From Candidatus Cloacimonadota bacterium (GTDB lineage Bacteria; Cloacimonadota; Cloacimonadia; Cloacimonadales; Cloacimonadaceae), in assembly GCA_027318475.1 (NCBI GenBank), contig DAHVPC010000002.1, positions 1 to 46,089 on the forward strand: a stretch of DNA of 46,089 nt, written 5' to 3'. Below the pieces are notes generated by a model. That model did no database searches and had not been told where the DNA came from. It saw only the letters and a program-made list of their open reading frames with translations. Positions 4,192 through 26,108 of this stretch are shown one piece after another. Position numbers and translations under genes: made by a program. Numbering within the stretch: position 1 is the first letter of the stretch; each line of letters opens with the position of its first letter.

Positions 4192-5835
4192 CTAGGTCAG
4201 TTTTTTATCCTTCATCGAGTAGGTCAGGTTTACGTATCTCCGGTGCCATTTCAAGAGGTGCAGGGCGTTTTTGAGGTCCGACATCGTGATCTTGAGGGAG
4301 GCAAAATCGGCGGCACTTTCGTCATCGAGGCTGATGGCCTTGGTTTCGATCGCCTTTCTGATCGCCACCATAGCCGCTTCCCTGGCCAGGAACGTGATTT
4401 CCGCCGCGGAATACCCCATCACCGCTTCCGAAAAGGCAAACAGGTCCACGTCGTCGTCCAGGGGCATGCCTCTGGTCGCGATCTCCAGCACCCTTTTGCA
4501 GCCCGGCAGATTGGGCTTGCGGATCTCCAGCTTGTAGTCGAACCGTCCAGGCCTCAGCAACGCGGCATCCAGAAGGTCGGGCCGGTTGGTGGACGCCAGG
4601 ACGGTGACGTTTCCGTAGTCCTTGATGCCATCCATCAGGGACATCAGTTGGTTGACCACGGTCGAATACCATTTCGAGGATTCCCCGGAGAGCCTGGTTT
4701 GGGCGATGGAATCGATCTCGTCGATGAAGATGACCGAGGGTTGGTAGTCCCTGGCTTCATCGAAGATGTCGCGCAGGTTCTTTTCGGACTGGCCGAAGTT
4801 CTTGTTCAGGATATCGGGTCCGGAAACGGGGATGAAATGGGCGTTGACTTCGTGCGCGATGGCTTTGGCGATGAGGGTTTTGCCGTTGCCGGGGTCTCCC
4901 CAGAGCAAGATCCCCCGATAGGGCCTCACGCCCAGATGCTCGTACAACTGGGGCTTCACGATGGGCAGTTCGACCACGATCCGGATGTTCTGGATGATCT
5001 CGTCCACCCCTCCGATATCGGCAAAACTGGTTTCGGGAACGTATCTCAGGTTCTGGGCATCGGAGGTCTGGGCAACGTTTTTCTGCCTGCCTTCCAATCC
5101 AGATACGCCATGATCAAAGCCAGGCGTCGCGCCTTCAGTTTCCTCCGGGGAAGAGGTTCCCAAGTGCTGGATGCCAACGGGTTCCCAGCGTTTGGCGATG
5201 TTGCTGGCGTCGTTCAGATACACCAGGCCCCAGTTATGGGAATCCGCCAGATGCACCAGCGCCGGAAGTGCCGCCACATACCTGCGGAAAAACTGCAGCT
5301 GGAAAACCGGGCAGAAATCCAAACTCTGCTTCCCGACGATCTTTTCCAGATCCCGGGTGAGGGCTTCCTTGTCGATCCGCCAGGTGTTTTTATCCAGGAA
5401 TTCCCCGTATTGGTACCAGTATCTGGCGTTTTTATCAAAGGGGGTTTTGGCGTGGCGCAGGATGATCCCTTTGAACAGACGGCAGCCCCAGCATTGGGGG
5501 TTTTTGCTGTCGCAGTATTCCTCCTGGTTTTCCGTGGCCAGATATCCTTGATGGCAGGCTGCCACCGCGTATTTCTCCGGCAGTGAGAACTCCGCGGGCA
5601 GCATCTCTTTCTGGTCGTGGATCACTCGCGCGGAATCCCAGTCGCGGATGGTGTCCAGCAGTTTCCGGAACACCTCAAATTTGGCCAAAGCCTCGTGATT
5701 GCTGGTCTCCACGAGGTGCAGCCCCGATCCGGAACCAGCGGGCGTATACTTCCTGAATTTGGTAGCGTATTCCAACACTTTGAGGTAATCCGGAATATTG
5801 GGATTTCCAAAGCGGACAGCAAAATCAAAGTCCAT
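4192..5835 (-). CDS. Single-domain Cdc48/VCP-like AAA+ ATPase with an unrecognised cysteine-containing N-terminal domain
   Basis: The C-terminal half (about residues 265-547) is a classical AAA module: SFADIGGVDEIIQ entry, Walker A GDPGNGKT (313-320), Walker B VIFIDEID (368-375), sensor 1 Asn in STNRPD (417), arginine-finger region LLRPGRFD (428, 431) and a helical lid. This is the Cdc48/PAN/FtsH type that unfolds or remodels proteins as a hexamer. The N-terminal 250 residues match no family I know. They contain Cys94, Cys108, Cys115 and Cys118 (YCDSKNPQCWGCRLF), which could bind metal. There is no protease motif and no transmembrane helix, so it should be cytosolic. I chose the ATG at 5835 (547 aa) after AGGATGG; the frame upstream to 6180 has no ribosome site and runs into the divergent promoter region. 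It lies 130 nt upstream of ackA. Confidence 0.85.
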   Translation of the reverse strand: MDFDFAVRFGNPNIPDYLKVLEYATKFRKYTPAGSGSGLHLVETSNHEALAKFEVFRKLLDTIRDWDSARVIHDQKEMLPAEFSLPEKYAVAACHQGYLATENQEEYCDSKNPQCWGCRLFKGIILRHAKTPFDKNARYWYQYGEFLDKNTWRIDKEALTRDLEKIVGKQSLDFCPVFQLQFFRRYVAALPALVHLADSHNWGLVYLNDASNIAKRWEPVGIQHLGTSSPEETEGATPGFDHGVSGLEGRQKNVAQTSDAQNLRYVPETSFADIGGVDEIIQNIRIVVELPIVKPQLYEHLGVRPYRGILLWGDPGNGKTLIAKAIAHEVNAHFIPVSGPDILNKNFGQSEKNLRDIFDEARDYQPSVIFIDEIDSIAQTRLSGESSKWYSTVVNQLMSLMDGIKDYGNVTVLASTNRPDLLDAALLRPGRFDYKLEIRKPNLPGCKRVLEIATRGMPLDDDVDLFAFSEAVMGYSAAEITFLAREAAMVAIRKAIETKAISLDDESAADFASLKITMSDLKNALHLLKWHRRYVNLTYSMKDKKLT

Positions 5836-5949
5836 TGCCAACCATCCTGATGTTCTTTTCTTCCCTCTGAAACGGGGCGTCATCTTGTCAAGGACTATCT
5901 GGCCGGCCTTTGCCAGAGCGTCTGTTATTCCGGCGGCGGGAATTTTCGC

Positions 5950-5978
5950 TTGACAGAGTTTTATCGCCCGGTTTTCTG
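5950..5978 (+). promoter_or_regulatory. Predicted promoter of the clan CD lipoprotein gene (TTGACA-N21-TG)
   Basis: TTGACA at 5950-5955 is preceded by CGC and followed 21 nt later by TG. The -10 hexamer is weak (TTTTCT). The lipoprotein start codon is about 100 nt downstream, leaving a leader of roughly 70 nt. Confidence 0.35.
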
Positions 5979-5998
5979 TTGCGGAGTTAGATTTGATG

Positions 5999-6015
5999 CC
6001 GGAGTCACACTCCGG
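5999..6015 (+). other. Small perfect hairpin in the predicted 5' leader
   Basis: CCGGAGT-CAC-ACTCCGG forms a 7-bp perfect stem with a 3-nt loop, 40 nt before the start codon of the lipoprotein gene. It may stabilise the leader or be an operator. There is no T-run, so it is not a terminator. Confidence 0.4.
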
Positions 6016-6055
6016 ACCCGTATTTGCAAACCTACGATACTTGAAGGAGTATGTT

Positions 6056-8341
6056 ATGAAAAACGTGGCACGGACATCCCTGCTCCTGCTGCTTGGTTTG
6101 ATGTTCTTCCTCAGCGCCTGCGACTGGCTGATGCCCTCCGACGACGAGGAAGCCCCCTCCCTGTTGATCAATACCCCCACATCCTATTTTTCCTGGGCGA
6201 CCACCAGCGCAACCCTCGATATTGCAGGCACCGCGACGGACAATGAAGAGATCAAATCCGTAAAAATCAGCGTCAACGGAGGCTCCTGGGTTTCCGCCGA
6301 AGGCAAAGCAGCCTGGTCGCTGGAAGACCTGTCTTTGCAGATGGGCGAAAACACCGTCGTCTGCGAAGCCAAGGACAAAGCCGGCAACGCAGCCAAAGAC
6401 ACCCTCTGGGTGACGCGGAACACGGACGTCGAATTCACCAGCGCGCCCACTTTCGCCCAAAGCAACTTCTTTGCCGGGCAAACCGGCTACACGGCAGTCA
6501 TCCAGGCTTTGCAGCCAGCAGCCGGAAAAGCCATCACCTCGGTCAAACTGGCCCGCCTCAATGCCGACCTGACCGTGCTTCAGGAAGTGGGCGACCTGTA
6601 TGACGACGGCAATTTGGGCAACAACGACGAGATCTCCGGAGACGGCCTGTACTCCGGCAACATCGGCATCTACGAGCAGGACCCCGGTTCCTTTCTCTAC
6701 CGCGTGGTGGCCTACACAGGAAGCAAGGTTGCGAACTACTCGCCGCTTTTCCGGGTCAACGTCTTCGAGCCCATGTCCACAGCCGACATCGCTGTGCTGA
6801 CAGATACTTACGACCAGATCGACGACGTCCTCAACGCCAGCACAGCCACCAGCTTGGACCAGGGCGTGACCGTGCTGAAGAACTGGTTTGAAGATCAGGA
6901 AGGCGTGGCTTCCGTCGAGGAAGTGGACGGCTCCCTGCAGATCACCTACACCAGCGGCATCACCAGCGGCGTCATCTTCTCCGAAACCGATGCCGACGGC
7001 TACATCATCACGAAAGGCGGCTCCGGAACTCCAGAACGCCAAAAGCCAAGCGTGCCCATGCACAAGCAGACCCGCGGAGTCAATCCCTACGCCGGTATGA
7101 CCCCCTACGTGAACTGGAGCCTGCCCAAAACTGTGGATCCCAATGCCATCCTGGACAAGGACGTGCTGATCTGGGCGCCCTTTGAAGACGCCTTCGGCAT
7201 CGATATGCGGCCTTCCCTGGAAACCATCTTCGGCAACAGCGACCTCGACCTCAACGTCGTCTCGCTCACCAATCAGGCCTGCACCATCGCCTCGCTGAAC
7301 AACCTCGCCGAATACGGCACCGTCATCTTCGATACCCATGGTTCCGGCGGCGAACACATCCTCACCGGAGAACTGATGACCGCCAGCAACTTGATCGAAC
7401 ATCTGCTGGACATCATCGGAAACAAGATTTCCTACTTCGAGAACATCACCTACAGCAACGTTGGCGGTTTCGTGAAGAAAGGCACGGTCTACAGCGTCCG
7501 CAGCGCCTACATTGCCAGCCTTGCCGGCACCATGCCCAACAGCCTGATCTTCAACGGCTCCTGCGAAAGCTCCAAGACCCTCAACCTCTCCAATGCCTTC
7601 CTGGGCAAAGGCGCCAAGGCCTACTTCGGCTTCAACAAGATCGTCAGCACCAGCTTCTGCAAGGCCAAATGCGACGAACTCTTCCAAAAGATGGCAGTGG
7701 AATTGAAGAACAACGGCCAGGCCTTCACCGCCGGCCAATCCGATCCCGGCAGCCACCACGCAACCTACACCATGAACGCCTCCACCAACGAACTGCACTA
7801 CTCCTTCGACCTCATCAACGGCGACTTCGAATTGGGCAACCTCACCGGATGGTCCAGGGAGGGCGATGGCCGCGTTATCACGCAATTGGCAGGCACGGCG
7901 CCCACGCAAGGCAACTTCATGGGCATCATTTCCACCGGACTGGGTTACACCACGAGCAGCGGCAGCATCGCCCAATCCTTCAAGGTGCCGGACTCCGTCT
8001 CCAACCTCAAGATCAAGTGGAACTTCATGTCCGAAGAGTTTATGGAATGGGTCGGCTCCCAATATCAGGACTACCTCACTTTCGCGCTGCGCGACAGCAA
8101 CGGCGTGGAACACGAACTCTTCCACAATACCATCGACAGCTTCGTCGGCTTTGGCCTGATCGACGTCTCGCCGCCCGTTTACTTCGACCACGGCGACTGC
8201 TACGGCACGGACTGGCGGGAGTTCGTGGCGGATATCGTGCCTTATCGTGGCCAGGTGGTGCGCTTGATCGTACGCATCGGCGATGTGGGCGACAGCGCCT
8301 ACGATTCCGCCTGTTTGCTGGACGAGATCTCGATTTATTGA
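6056..8341 (+). CDS. Lipoprotein with Ig-like, caspase-like (clan CD) and C-terminal jelly-roll-like domains
   Basis: The 761-aa protein starts at ATG 6056, 6 nt after AAGGAG; the ORF-track start at 5993 has no such site. Residues 1-22 are a lipoprotein signal ending in LSAC (Cys22). Residues about 35-120 look like a bacterial Ig-like domain (TSATLDIAGTATDNEEIKSVKISVNG...). The middle part carries a His in VIFDTHGSGGEH (His428) and a Cys after a hydrophobic strand in SLIFNGSCESS (Cys503). That is the order and spacing style of the His/Cys dyad of caspase-like peptidases (clan CD, e.g. C11/C25). The C-terminal 170 residues (NGDFELGNLTGW...) resemble a carbohydrate-binding-like jelly roll. I infer a surface lipoprotein peptidase. 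The small lipoprotein gene follows with translation coupled across the stop codon. Confidence 0.75.
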   Translation: MKNVARTSLLLLLGLMFFLSACDWLMPSDDEEAPSLLINTPTSYFSWATTSATLDIAGTATDNEEIKSVKISVNGGSWVSAEGKAAWSLEDLSLQMGENTVVCEAKDKAGNAAKDTLWVTRNTDVEFTSAPTFAQSNFFAGQTGYTAVIQALQPAAGKAITSVKLARLNADLTVLQEVGDLYDDGNLGNNDEISGDGLYSGNIGIYEQDPGSFLYRVVAYTGSKVANYSPLFRVNVFEPMSTADIAVLTDTYDQIDDVLNASTATSLDQGVTVLKNWFEDQEGVASVEEVDGSLQITYTSGITSGVIFSETDADGYIITKGGSGTPERQKPSVPMHKQTRGVNPYAGMTPYVNWSLPKTVDPNAILDKDVLIWAPFEDAFGIDMRPSLETIFGNSDLDLNVVSLTNQACTIASLNNLAEYGTVIFDTHGSGGEHILTGELMTASNLIEHLLDIIGNKISYFENITYSNVGGFVKKGTVYSVRSAYIASLAGTMPNSLIFNGSCESSKTLNLSNAFLGKGAKAYFGFNKIVSTSFCKAKCDELFQKMAVELKNNGQAFTAGQSDPGSHHATYTMNASTNELHYSFDLINGDFELGNLTGWSREGDGRVITQLAGTAPTQGNFMGIISTGLGYTTSSGSIAQSFKVPDSVSNLKIKWNFMSEEFMEWVGSQYQDYLTFALRDSNGVEHELFHNTIDSFVGFGLIDVSPPVYFDHGDCYGTDWREFVADIVPYRGQVVRLIVRIGDVGDSAYDSACLLDEISIY

Positions 8342-20565: not shown

Positions 20566-21621
20566 ATGCAAGACAAGAACAAAGAAGTCGCCCTGAAAAC
20601 CGCGATTTCGCAGCTGGAAAAGAAGTATGGCGTGGGGACCTTGATGCGCCTCGGTGACAGTCCGCAGGTGAAAGTGGACGTGATCCCCACCGGAGCGTTC
20701 AACCTGGATCTGGCTTTGGGCATCGGTGGAATTCCGCGCGGCAGGGTCACCGAGATCTATGGAGCCGAAGCCAGCGGCAAAACCACTCTGGCCTTGCACA
20801 TCGCCGCGGAAGCGCAAAAAATGGACGGCATCGTGGCCTTCATCGACGCGGAGCACGCGCTGGACACCGCCTACGCCAAGAAACTGGGCGTGCGGATCGA
20901 GGAACTGCTGCTTTCCCAACCCGACGGCGGCGAACAGGCCCTGGAAGTCTGCGAGACCCTGGTGCGCAGTTCCGCGGTGGACCTGGTGATTGTGGATTCG
21001 GTGGCGGCCCTGGTGCCTAAAGCGGAGATCGAAGGCGACATGGGCGACAGCCACGTGGGTTTGCAAGCCCGCCTGATGAGCCAGGCCCTGCGCAAACTGA
21101 CCGCCATCGTAGCCAAATCCAACACCGCCGTGGTGTTCATCAACCAGACCCGCATGAAGATCGGCGTCACGGCCTATATGAACCCCGAAACGACCACCGG
21201 CGGAGTCGCCCTCAAGTTTTACTCCTCGGTGCGCCTCGAAGTGCGCTTTGCCGGCGGGATCAAACTCGGCGGCACGGACAGCGACGTCATCGGCGCCAAG
21301 ACGCGCGTCAAGATCGTGAAAAACAAGCTCGCTCCGCCTTTCCGCACCGTGATCTTCCCCATCATCTTCGGCGAAGGAATCTCCAACCTGGACATCATCC
21401 TGGACATGGCGATCGACATGAACATCATCAAGAAAAGCGGCTCCTGGCTGTCTTATGGGGAGATCAAACTGGGCCAGGGCTCCGAAAAGACCAAGCAGTA
21501 CCTGAAGGAAAACCCCCAACTGCTGGAGGAGATCGAAGGCAAGGTGCGCGAGAAAGCCATTCCCGACGAGCTCTTCAACAGCGATAAAAAAGATGACGCT
21601 GAGGATCTGCCCCAAGACTAA
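20566..21621 (+). CDS. recA: RecA recombinase
   Basis: This is a homologous recombination ATPase and SOS co-protease. The 351-aa protein shows the whole RecA core: [94 protein letters not shown], with an acidic C-terminus ([11 protein letters not shown]). The Walker A is GAEASGKT at 66-73, where most RecA proteins have GPESSGKT; the catalytic Gly-Lys-Thr is intact. The start has AGGA 8 nt upstream. The 3' end overlaps recX by 29 nt. I saw no LexA-like operator in the short gap ahead of it. Confidence 0.98.
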
Positions 21622-24476: not shown

Positions 24477-25883
24477 TCAGTCGTTAGATTGCAGTACTTC
24501 CAGCACTCTTTCGAAGATGTAGCCCACATGGATGCGGTTGGTGAGGTCGAGTTTTTCCACGTCGATTTCCAAGACGGGGCCATTGTGAAAGCCGAGTTTG
24601 GCAACGTTCGCCCCGTAGGATTTGTACCAGTGGTTCAGGTTGTTGATCTCCGTAGCATTCCAGCCGCCCTCCATTTCCATTTCCCGGCCGCGCTGCTGAA
24701 TGCGTTCCCAGGCCAAAGACGGGCTTCCCTGCAGAAGAATGATCAAGTCCGAGGAAGGCAGTTGCCTGTTTACGGTCTGGAATTGGGTGCCAAGGTTGTC
24801 CAGTTCGTCATCGGTGAGCAGGCCGTCGGCATGGAACTGATTGCAGAAAACCAGTAAATCCTCGGGTAGGGAACGGTCCTTCACATAGCTGCCGGTTCCG
24901 CTTTTACCCAGCCGCCGTTGCTGCGCCCGCATTTCCAGAAAATGCAACTGCAACTCATAACACCATGTTTTCTTATCGCCCAGAAACTTCTCCAGCAGCG
25001 GGTTCTCTTCCGGCTTTTCGTAGAGCGTGTTGATCTTCAGGCTGCGACCCATGATGGCCGCCAGGGTCGATTTCCCCAATCCGACGTTGCCGGCTATGGT
25101 GATCAGTTTCGGGTGTTCGGCGAGGTATGTTTCCAGTTGGCGCTCGACGTCGATGGCCTTGAGCGTGGCTTCGGTTTGAGGCAGGGTGACCCATTCGCTG
25201 ATGCCCGGGCTGGATACGCGCAGTTCCAAAGTTTTGACCTGCTCCGCGATGATATTTACGGTGCGCCGCAGCCACTCCATCTTCTCCACCGCTCTTTCCG
25301 CGTTTATGACCAGGACCGGGCAGTGGACGTGATTGGCGATGAAGTCCTCATACAGATTGTTCAGCAGTTCGAGGTATTCCGCTGAAATCGCCAGTTCGCT
25401 GGCGCGGCCTCGTTCCCGGATCCTTTCCTGGAGGATGGGGACGTCCGCCTTGAAATACACCAGCAGGTCGGGCTCCTTGATCTGTTCCGTCATCAGCCGG
25501 TAGGTGCGCTGATAGGCGATGAACTCCGGCTCGGACATGTTTTGCAGGATGCGCTGGGCTTTGCCGAAGATATGATAATCCTCCGCGAGGGTCCTGTCTT
25601 CCAGCACGATCCCCCGGCAGGTCTGGATCAGTTTCTGGCGGTCCAGCCGGCCGTTGAAGAATTCGATCTGGGCCATGAACGCGTTGGCCACTGGATCTTT
25701 GTAAAAGGAATCCAGCACGATGGGATTGAATTTCTCCGGAAAGGCGAACACCCCTTCGGTGCCGTTGGGTTTGGGATACACGGAGGTCAGGACCTTGTTC
25801 AGGGGCGCGGAACTGGCCGCTTCGATGAAGGTGGATTTGCCCACCCCGATGTTTCCCACGATGCCGATGCGGATGTTCTCCAT
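24477..25883 (-). CDS. Fused tandem deoxynucleoside kinase (two dNK domains in one chain)
   Basis: The 468-aa protein contains two complete kinase domains of the dCK/dGK/TK2 family. Half 1 has Walker A GNIGVGKST (10-18), the DRT version of the DRS motif in VLEDRTLAED (96-98) and lid ERGR (157-160). Half 2 has GNVGLGKST (265-273), DRS in VKDRSLPED (336-338) and QRGR (397-400). Family members phosphorylate deoxynucleosides to monophosphates with ATP, the first step of salvage, and normally are single domains of about 200-220 aa that dimerise. Both halves look catalytically complete, so they may have different base preferences. The start at 25883 has AAGGA 6 nt upstream; TTG at 25904 is rejected. 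A TTGACC-type element lies near 25993-25999. Confidence 0.88.
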   Translation of the reverse strand: MENIRIGIVGNIGVGKSTFIEAASSAPLNKVLTSVYPKPNGTEGVFAFPEKFNPIVLDSFYKDPVANAFMAQIEFFNGRLDRQKLIQTCRGIVLEDRTLAEDYHIFGKAQRILQNMSEPEFIAYQRTYRLMTEQIKEPDLLVYFKADVPILQERIRERGRASELAISAEYLELLNNLYEDFIANHVHCPVLVINAERAVEKMEWLRRTVNIIAEQVKTLELRVSSPGISEWVTLPQTEATLKAIDVERQLETYLAEHPKLITIAGNVGLGKSTLAAIMGRSLKINTLYEKPEENPLLEKFLGDKKTWCYELQLHFLEMRAQQRRLGKSGTGSYVKDRSLPEDLLVFCNQFHADGLLTDDELDNLGTQFQTVNRQLPSSDLIILLQGSPSLAWERIQQRGREMEMEGGWNATEINNLNHWYKSYGANVAKLGFHNGPVLEIDVEKLDLTNRIHVGYIFERVLEVLQSND

Positions 25884-26108
25884 TTTTATTCCTTCCAACT
25901 TCAAATTTCTCTTGGCCCAGAGATATATTACGCCTTGTTAATCCACTTGCTGATCACGTCTCTAGCTTCCAGTAATTTATCCTGGCGCATCTGGTCAAGA
26001 CAATCTTTTTGGGAAGTATCCAGCCGGACTCTCGCGTGAAGAGTAATAGCATTGTCATCCCGGGCTTGACTGTACAAAGCTTGGGGTTTAGCGACCCGGC
26101 CATCCGCA

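Follow-up and report, generated by a model that had tools for sequence, protein, structure and literature searches.

A two-domain deoxynucleoside kinase of Cloacimonadota with two unlike, conserved halves

In a metagenome-assembled genome of Cloacimonadota (2.34 Mb, 89% complete), we found a gene that encodes two deoxynucleoside kinase (dNK) domains of different subfamilies in one chain. It lies in a 46,089-nt stretch of contig DAHVPC010000002.1, and we refer to this whole stretch as the window. The best explanation overall, which we consider rather probable given the sequence comparisons, is that the protein is a cytosolic salvage dNK with two distinct sites, in which the C half aids the N half and the chain forms an obligate pseudo-heterodimer. 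Two ancient, unlike dNK subfamilies make up this chain as one old fusion lineage, and they would have been joined once by a structured linker. The N half would phosphorylate deoxyadenosine, deoxyguanosine and/or deoxycytidine with ATP, while the C half would bind ATP, would probably hold an active kinase site of other sugar or nucleoside specificity, and would also support its obligate partner.

Gene and domain architecture

The gene and its main parts occupy the following positions in the window.

24477 to 25883, minus strand: two-domain dNK gene, 468 aa, ATG at 25883, TGA stop
25890 to 25896, minus strand: ribosome-binding-like GGAAGGA, 6 nt upstream of the ATG, recognized from the sequence
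25230 to 25883, minus strand: N-terminal dNK domain, residues 1 to 218, canonical substrate residues, insert before strand 2
25116 to 25229, minus strand: inter-domain linker, residues 219 to 256, predicted helices 228 to 232 and 236 to 256, W231 invariant
24486 to 25115, minus strand: C-terminal dNK domain, residues 257 to 466, subfamily seen solely inside the fusion

Residues M1-E2 are kept in relatives. We tested each half against PF01712, for which the curated cutoff is 27 bits, and found two matches within one unbroken frame, at 122.6 bits (E 2e-35, residues 6 to 208) and 99.2 bits (E 3e-28, roughly residues 261 to 449); the full 468-aa protein scores 217.8 bits. The claim of the first-pass annotation that one chain holds two full dNK domains is therefore borne out. 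The same is true of its claim that each half has its own P-loop, DRS/DRT motif and lid arginines: these elements, the DR motif in the form DR[TS]xxED, are conserved over 27 diverse fusions, and together with the substrate Gln they are present in each half (27 fusions; 59 N and 59 C domains). The fusion is a single uninterrupted open reading frame, not two dNK chains from separate genes as in a dAK/dGK heterodimer, and it has no match to PF00265 (the TK1 family), which sets it apart from tandem TK1-type enzymes. Its best sequence matches among solved structures are dAK, dGK, dNK and dCK enzymes. Weak PADLOC matches to two candidate defense models are consistent with general similarity among P-loop kinases.

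AlphaFold models contain two canonical dNK folds (pLDDT 80 and 89), and the best fold matches, taken one domain at a time, are Giardia dAK, Mycoplasma mycoides dAK and human dCK. Foldseek TM scores (target) of 0.83 to 0.87 to the Giardia and M. mycoides dAKs (model me7c57199dcee, pLDDT 89) identify the dNK fold. With a deeper alignment, pTM rose from 0.50 to 0.64 and the linker turned helical, the mutual placement of the halves still being of low confidence. The linker (residues 219 to 256) is as conserved as the domains (mean majority frequency 0.72 versus 0.70) and its Trp231 is invariant; this favors a structural role over that of a slack connection. We predict, with fair confidence, that the two halves pack as a pseudo-dimer.

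The open-access papers that we searched, the subscription literature being mostly outside the search, hold no description of a two-domain PF01712 enzyme, and non-TK1 dNKs are described there as mostly dimers (PMC11662666); single-domain enzymes seem to be the only members of this family on record. The fold and reaction class are known, while the covalent two-domain architecture appears to be new, as does the C-terminal subfamily with its invariant change at a substrate contact.

Origin and distribution of the fusion

We built a domain tree of 74 rows to establish whether the halves are recent duplicates or two old subfamilies, a question raised in the first-pass annotation. All C halves fall into a single clade (100/100) with a long stem, beside bacterial dAK/dCK-type enzymes, with Bacillus subtilis Dck, Giardia dAK and Cloacimonadota single genes as neighbors. 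The N halves group (99/97) with archaeal single-domain genes, apart from the C halves. A joint N + C clade is rejected (p-AU 0.00026), which rules out a recent internal duplication; by this phylogeny, the halves are two old dNK subfamilies and not recent copies. The proposal of a covalent pair is supported for two different dNK subfamilies, with catalytic residues retained in both halves.

Two stand-alone N-type dNKs of 250 aa from Woesearchaeota-labelled genomes (L108, 4044 to 4793; L109, 5938 to 6687) are nested in the N group. Trees that leave them out of this group are rejected, though marginally (p 0.047), so these genes may derive from fusions that have lost their C half. C-type domains score 220 to 385 bits in intact fusions and 145 bits in the contig-cut copy of G414, compared with <117 bits for other dNKs, and none was found outside a fusion in 288 genomes of the archaeal order or 369 genomes of the gammaproteobacterial class. 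This gap in scores therefore confines the C subfamily to the fusion in the sampled genomes. A split form of the halves in relatives, which the first-pass annotation had suggested looking for, did not emerge in the sister order: the two separate dNK genes found in that order, which belongs to the window's phylum, are of ordinary types and group with dAK/dCK-type and dGK-type enzymes.

The same two-domain protein, 466 to 468 aa long, is encoded in dozens of independent assemblies at 55 to 96% identity, a recurrence that excludes chance. Among 61 genomes of the window's kin, 20 carry a full-length or near-full-length fusion, its own genome included, and by hand count the fusion is in about 40 of 125 Cloacimonadota genomes, or about a third. 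A wider survey, in which each species was represented by one genome and scanned by pattern, detected the fusion in many Cloacimonadota and in Gammaproteobacteria (Coxiellaceae, Legionellales, and one uncultured gammaproteobacterial contig). It also detected the fusion in Woesearchaeota-labelled genomes, as well as in two genomes that bear the label Deltaproteobacteria/Myxococcota; since the carriers are mostly metagenome bins, these archaeal and myxobacterial labels are provisional. Fusions outside Cloacimonadota are 55 to 66% identical. A strong dNK is encoded by 6 of 36 genomes in the order to which the Coxiellaceae carriers belong, and in all six it is the fusion; the 288 genomes of the archaeal order yielded eight intact fusions and one cut by a contig end, and an even draw of 369 genomes from the gammaproteobacterial class yielded four. 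That the fusion is an artefact of assembly, frame or annotation, or a recent tandem duplication, is extremely improbable, since the same architecture recurs across so many independent assemblies and a joint clade of the halves is rejected; nothing in this copy hints at an artefact, the nearest signs being a broken frame in one archaeal copy and the truncation of some copies by contig ends. The archaeal-labelled copy in question (L102, 5880 to 7231) has a frame change between its domains, due to decay or sequencing error.

Several candidate carriers and related loci were set aside. A carrier labelled Armatimonadetes (L074) has the same coordinates and size as G080 and so falls inside the window's phylum. 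No fusion was found on phages, viral contigs or plasmids, and a plasmid match at 89% cover is an adjacent Bacillus-like dgk-dck pair rather than a fusion. A Stutzerimonas plasmid record (L116, NZ_CP078512.1) has the Bacillus-like order glycosyl hydrolase-dgk-dck at 5111 to 7263 and is possibly contaminated or mislabelled. In two long archaeal reading frames (L168 and L169), the upstream part reads as read-through before a likely Met start, not as a second domain.

We also observed other arrangements of dNK genes. In one Woesearchaeota-labelled contig (L090, 5161 to 7506), a single-domain N-type dNK lies directly upstream of the fusion on the same strand, placing three dNK domains in a row. Other genomes of the archaeal order have two or three adjacent, divergent single-domain dNK-like genes (L172, 1429 to 3542; L167, 1495 to 2863; L171), and we found no paper on this diversity of adjacent archaeal genes. 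In addition to its fusion, one genome of the window's order (G101) encodes a single-domain dNK at a contig end (L035, 2 to 712) that closely resembles the one in the sister order, reflecting either misbinning or transfer.

Active-site residues and proposed roles of the halves

We assigned roles to residues by alignment, following the published structure of Giardia dAK (PMC11662666). The sites in the two halves are as follows.

25830 to 25856, minus strand: N-half P-loop GNIGVGKST, residues 10 to 18, K16 invariant
25734 to 25736, minus strand: Glu50, probable N-half catalytic base, as judged from its invariance and its place right after predicted strand 2
25701 to 25706, minus strand: Phe60-Tyr61, N half, base-stacking Phe and 3'-OH-binding Tyr (roles from PMC11662666)
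25647 to 25670, minus strand: Gln72...Arg79, N half, base recognition, conserved
25578 to 25598, minus strand: Asp96-Arg97...Asp102, N half (DRTLAED), conserved
25395 to 25412, minus strand: N-half lid arginines R158 and R160 and sugar-binding Glu E163, conserved
25065 to 25091, minus strand: C-half P-loop GNVGLGKST, residues 265 to 273, K271 invariant
25017 to 25019, minus strand: Glu289, C-half catalytic base position, aligned to Giardia E61
24981 to 24986, minus strand: Phe300-Leu301, C half, Leu where other dNKs have the 3'-OH-binding Tyr
24927 to 24950, minus strand: Gln312...Arg319, C half, conserved
24858 to 24878, minus strand: Asp336-Arg337...Asp342, C half (DRSLPED), conserved
24660 to 24704, minus strand: C-half lid R394-W408, extended, Gly406-Gly407-Trp408 invariant

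Across the 27 fusions, the invariant residues are K16, E50, F60, Y61, Q72, R79, D96, R97, D102, F106, R158, R160 and E163 in the N half, and K271, E289, F300, Q312, R319, D336, R337, D342, F346, R398 and E403 in the C half. In the larger set of 59 N and 59 C domains, both halves keep, essentially without variation, the P-loop Lys, stacking Phe, Gln, Arg/Asp pair, DR arginine, second Phe, lid arginines and sugar Glu. The C-half base position is Glu in 58 of 58 domains and aligns opposite Giardia E61. For the N half, the insert before strand 2 leads hhalign and the alignments to pair the canonical Glu with a different residue; E50, which is invariant (27/27), follows predicted strand 44 to 47 and lies one residue closer to the FY motif than the canonical base, is the probable catalytic base. 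Among the top-scoring single-domain dNKs (L218 to L233) of the class that includes the gammaproteobacterial carriers, the DR arginine is mostly replaced by Phe or Tyr, whereas the Gln, Arg and Asp are retained.

Tyr73 of Giardia dAK binds the 3'-OH of the sugar, and in a model it would clash with a 2'-OH (PMC11662666). The equivalent position is Tyr in 59 of 59 N halves (Y61 here) versus Leu in 58 of 58 C halves, so that the C half is without the 3'-OH-binding Tyr. Single-domain entries have Tyr in 50 of 53 cases, the exceptions including L102, a C-half fragment, and L171, a distant kinase, and the distinction between C-type Leu and the Tyr of single enzymes was upheld in every additional domain that we examined. 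The expectation that a half short of its catalytic base or substrate residues would speak against two working sites is thus answered in part: the catalytic set is kept, but the C half has lost one sugar-contacting residue. We assign the C half to PF01712 on sequence and do not claim it as a standard dNK.

The difference between DRT and DRS had been taken as a hint of substrate preference. It is uninformative on specificity, because T and S switch among orthologous C halves (L094 and L074 have DRT) as well as among single-domain enzymes. As far as the alignments indicate, the difference between the halves that is relevant to specificity is Tyr61 versus Leu301, together with the Gly-Gly-Trp of the C-half lid. 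The Arg/Asp pair selects dA, dG and dC over dT in dCK and Drosophila dNK. Because its Arg79/Asp102 pair is of this dCK/dGK/dAK type, which disfavors thymidine, the N half is quite likely a dA/dG/dC kinase.

For the C half, an active site with altered sugar specificity has close to an even chance of being correct, and a role as a helper or sensor domain is possible if doubtful. Loss of the Tyr could mean that the C half perhaps only binds nucleotides and no longer phosphorylates nucleosides. In a rival reading, a catalytic N half is paired with a C half that binds nucleotides without catalysis and serves to increase substrate affinity or to sense dNTPs, by analogy with the tandem thymidine kinase of T. 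brucei, whose two homologous parts jointly allow efficient substrate binding. In its favor, Leu occupies the 3'-OH-binding position in every C half, no C-type domain was found alone in the sampled genomes, and in the literature added subunits or domains raise the affinity of TK1 enzymes, as tetramerization does in Giardia dAK. We consider this reading rather unlikely, because all 27 fusions keep the P-loop Lys, base Glu, DR motif and lid Arg398 of the C half unchanged, which exceeds what nucleotide binding alone would need. Since the Tyr that excludes a 2'-hydroxyl is gone from the C half and its lid has acquired an invariant Gly-Gly-Trp, this half might instead take another class of acceptor (e.g., ribonucleosides or sugar-modified nucleosides) and make the protein a dual-specificity salvage kinase, which we think decidedly unlikely; if true, one chain would hold two chemically distinct salvage sites. 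Both halves could also be ordinary dNKs of overlapping dA/dG/dC specificity, fused to ensure a 1:1 dimer, with the Tyr-to-Leu change neutral. The Gln/Arg/Asp base-recognition set in both halves fits such a pairing, but the subfamilies have stayed separate throughout a long evolution and Leu301 and the lid Gly-Gly-Trp are invariant and have not drifted, making it quite improbable.

Genome context and comparison with known systems

The genome that carries the fusion also encodes a ribonucleotide reductase (PF02867) and a separate TK1 thymidine kinase. Given that PF02867 is present here and in 68 of 71 good Cloacimonadota genomes, we rejected the idea that the fusion stands in for a missing reductase. 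Because both the reductase and TK1 are present, the role of the fusion would most simply be auxiliary salvage of non-thymidine deoxynucleosides, without replacing de novo synthesis. Its neighbors in the window, named by reading, include recA, recX, an endonuclease III-like gene and an SRAP-like gene; none of the window neighbors was found beside the copies of other carriers, and DNA similarity among carriers of the family stops near the borders of the fusion gene.

Between genera, the fusion protein is about 90% identical while its four-fold sites are 41 to 54% identical, having diverged about as much as those of recA, which shows that the whole protein is under strong purifying selection. For comparison, RecA (window 20566 to 21621) is 73 to 79% identical between genera, versus about 90% for the fusion (24477 to 25883), with similar synonymous divergence. 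The higher identity and the unshared neighbors hinted at recent horizontal spread within the window's family, which we rejected given the similarly diverged four-fold sites.

According to the 2024 structural study of Giardia dAK, a gain in affinity through added subunits or domains was known for TK1 enzymes and had not previously been demonstrated for the other dNK family (PMC11662666). The fusion is a natural two-domain non-TK1 dNK across bacteria and archaea and so gives direct access to what a second, covalently attached domain contributes. Its Tyr-to-Leu C half is also a natural system in which to study the exclusion of ribonucleosides by dNKs, and a possible biocatalyst for nucleotide analogues.

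Bacterial dAK/dCK-type dNKs of PF01712, such as B. subtilis Dck and M. mycoides dAK (2jaq/2jas), share with the fusion the fold, P-loop, base Glu, Gln, Arg/Asp pair, DR motif and lid, and with Giardia dAK they are among the closest solved structures; they differ in being single-domain and in having Tyr, not the Leu of the C half, as the 3'-OH-binding residue. Unlike the fusion, dgk and dck of B. subtilis are two adjacent genes. The Lactobacillus dAK/dGK heterodimer, like the fusion, has two unlike dNK sites per unit, but on two chains from separate genes. Another longer chain with a PF01712 domain, on a Flavobacteriaceae contig (L114), is a FolK-like/dNK fusion whose partner reads as HPPK (FolK) from its sequence. 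Giardia intestinalis dAK (8puu), the top structural match to the halves, is the nearest structural precedent, being a non-TK1 dNK whose affinity is raised by added quaternary structure; it differs in having one domain per chain, in forming a homotetramer through terminal extensions, and in keeping Tyr73. In function, the closest precedent is found in Trypanosoma brucei, whose tandem thymidine kinase has two homologous domains in one chain that are reported to cooperate in substrate binding (PMC4433323 and its reference 35), although this eukaryotic enzyme belongs to the TK1 family, which is structurally unrelated to PF01712 dNKs.
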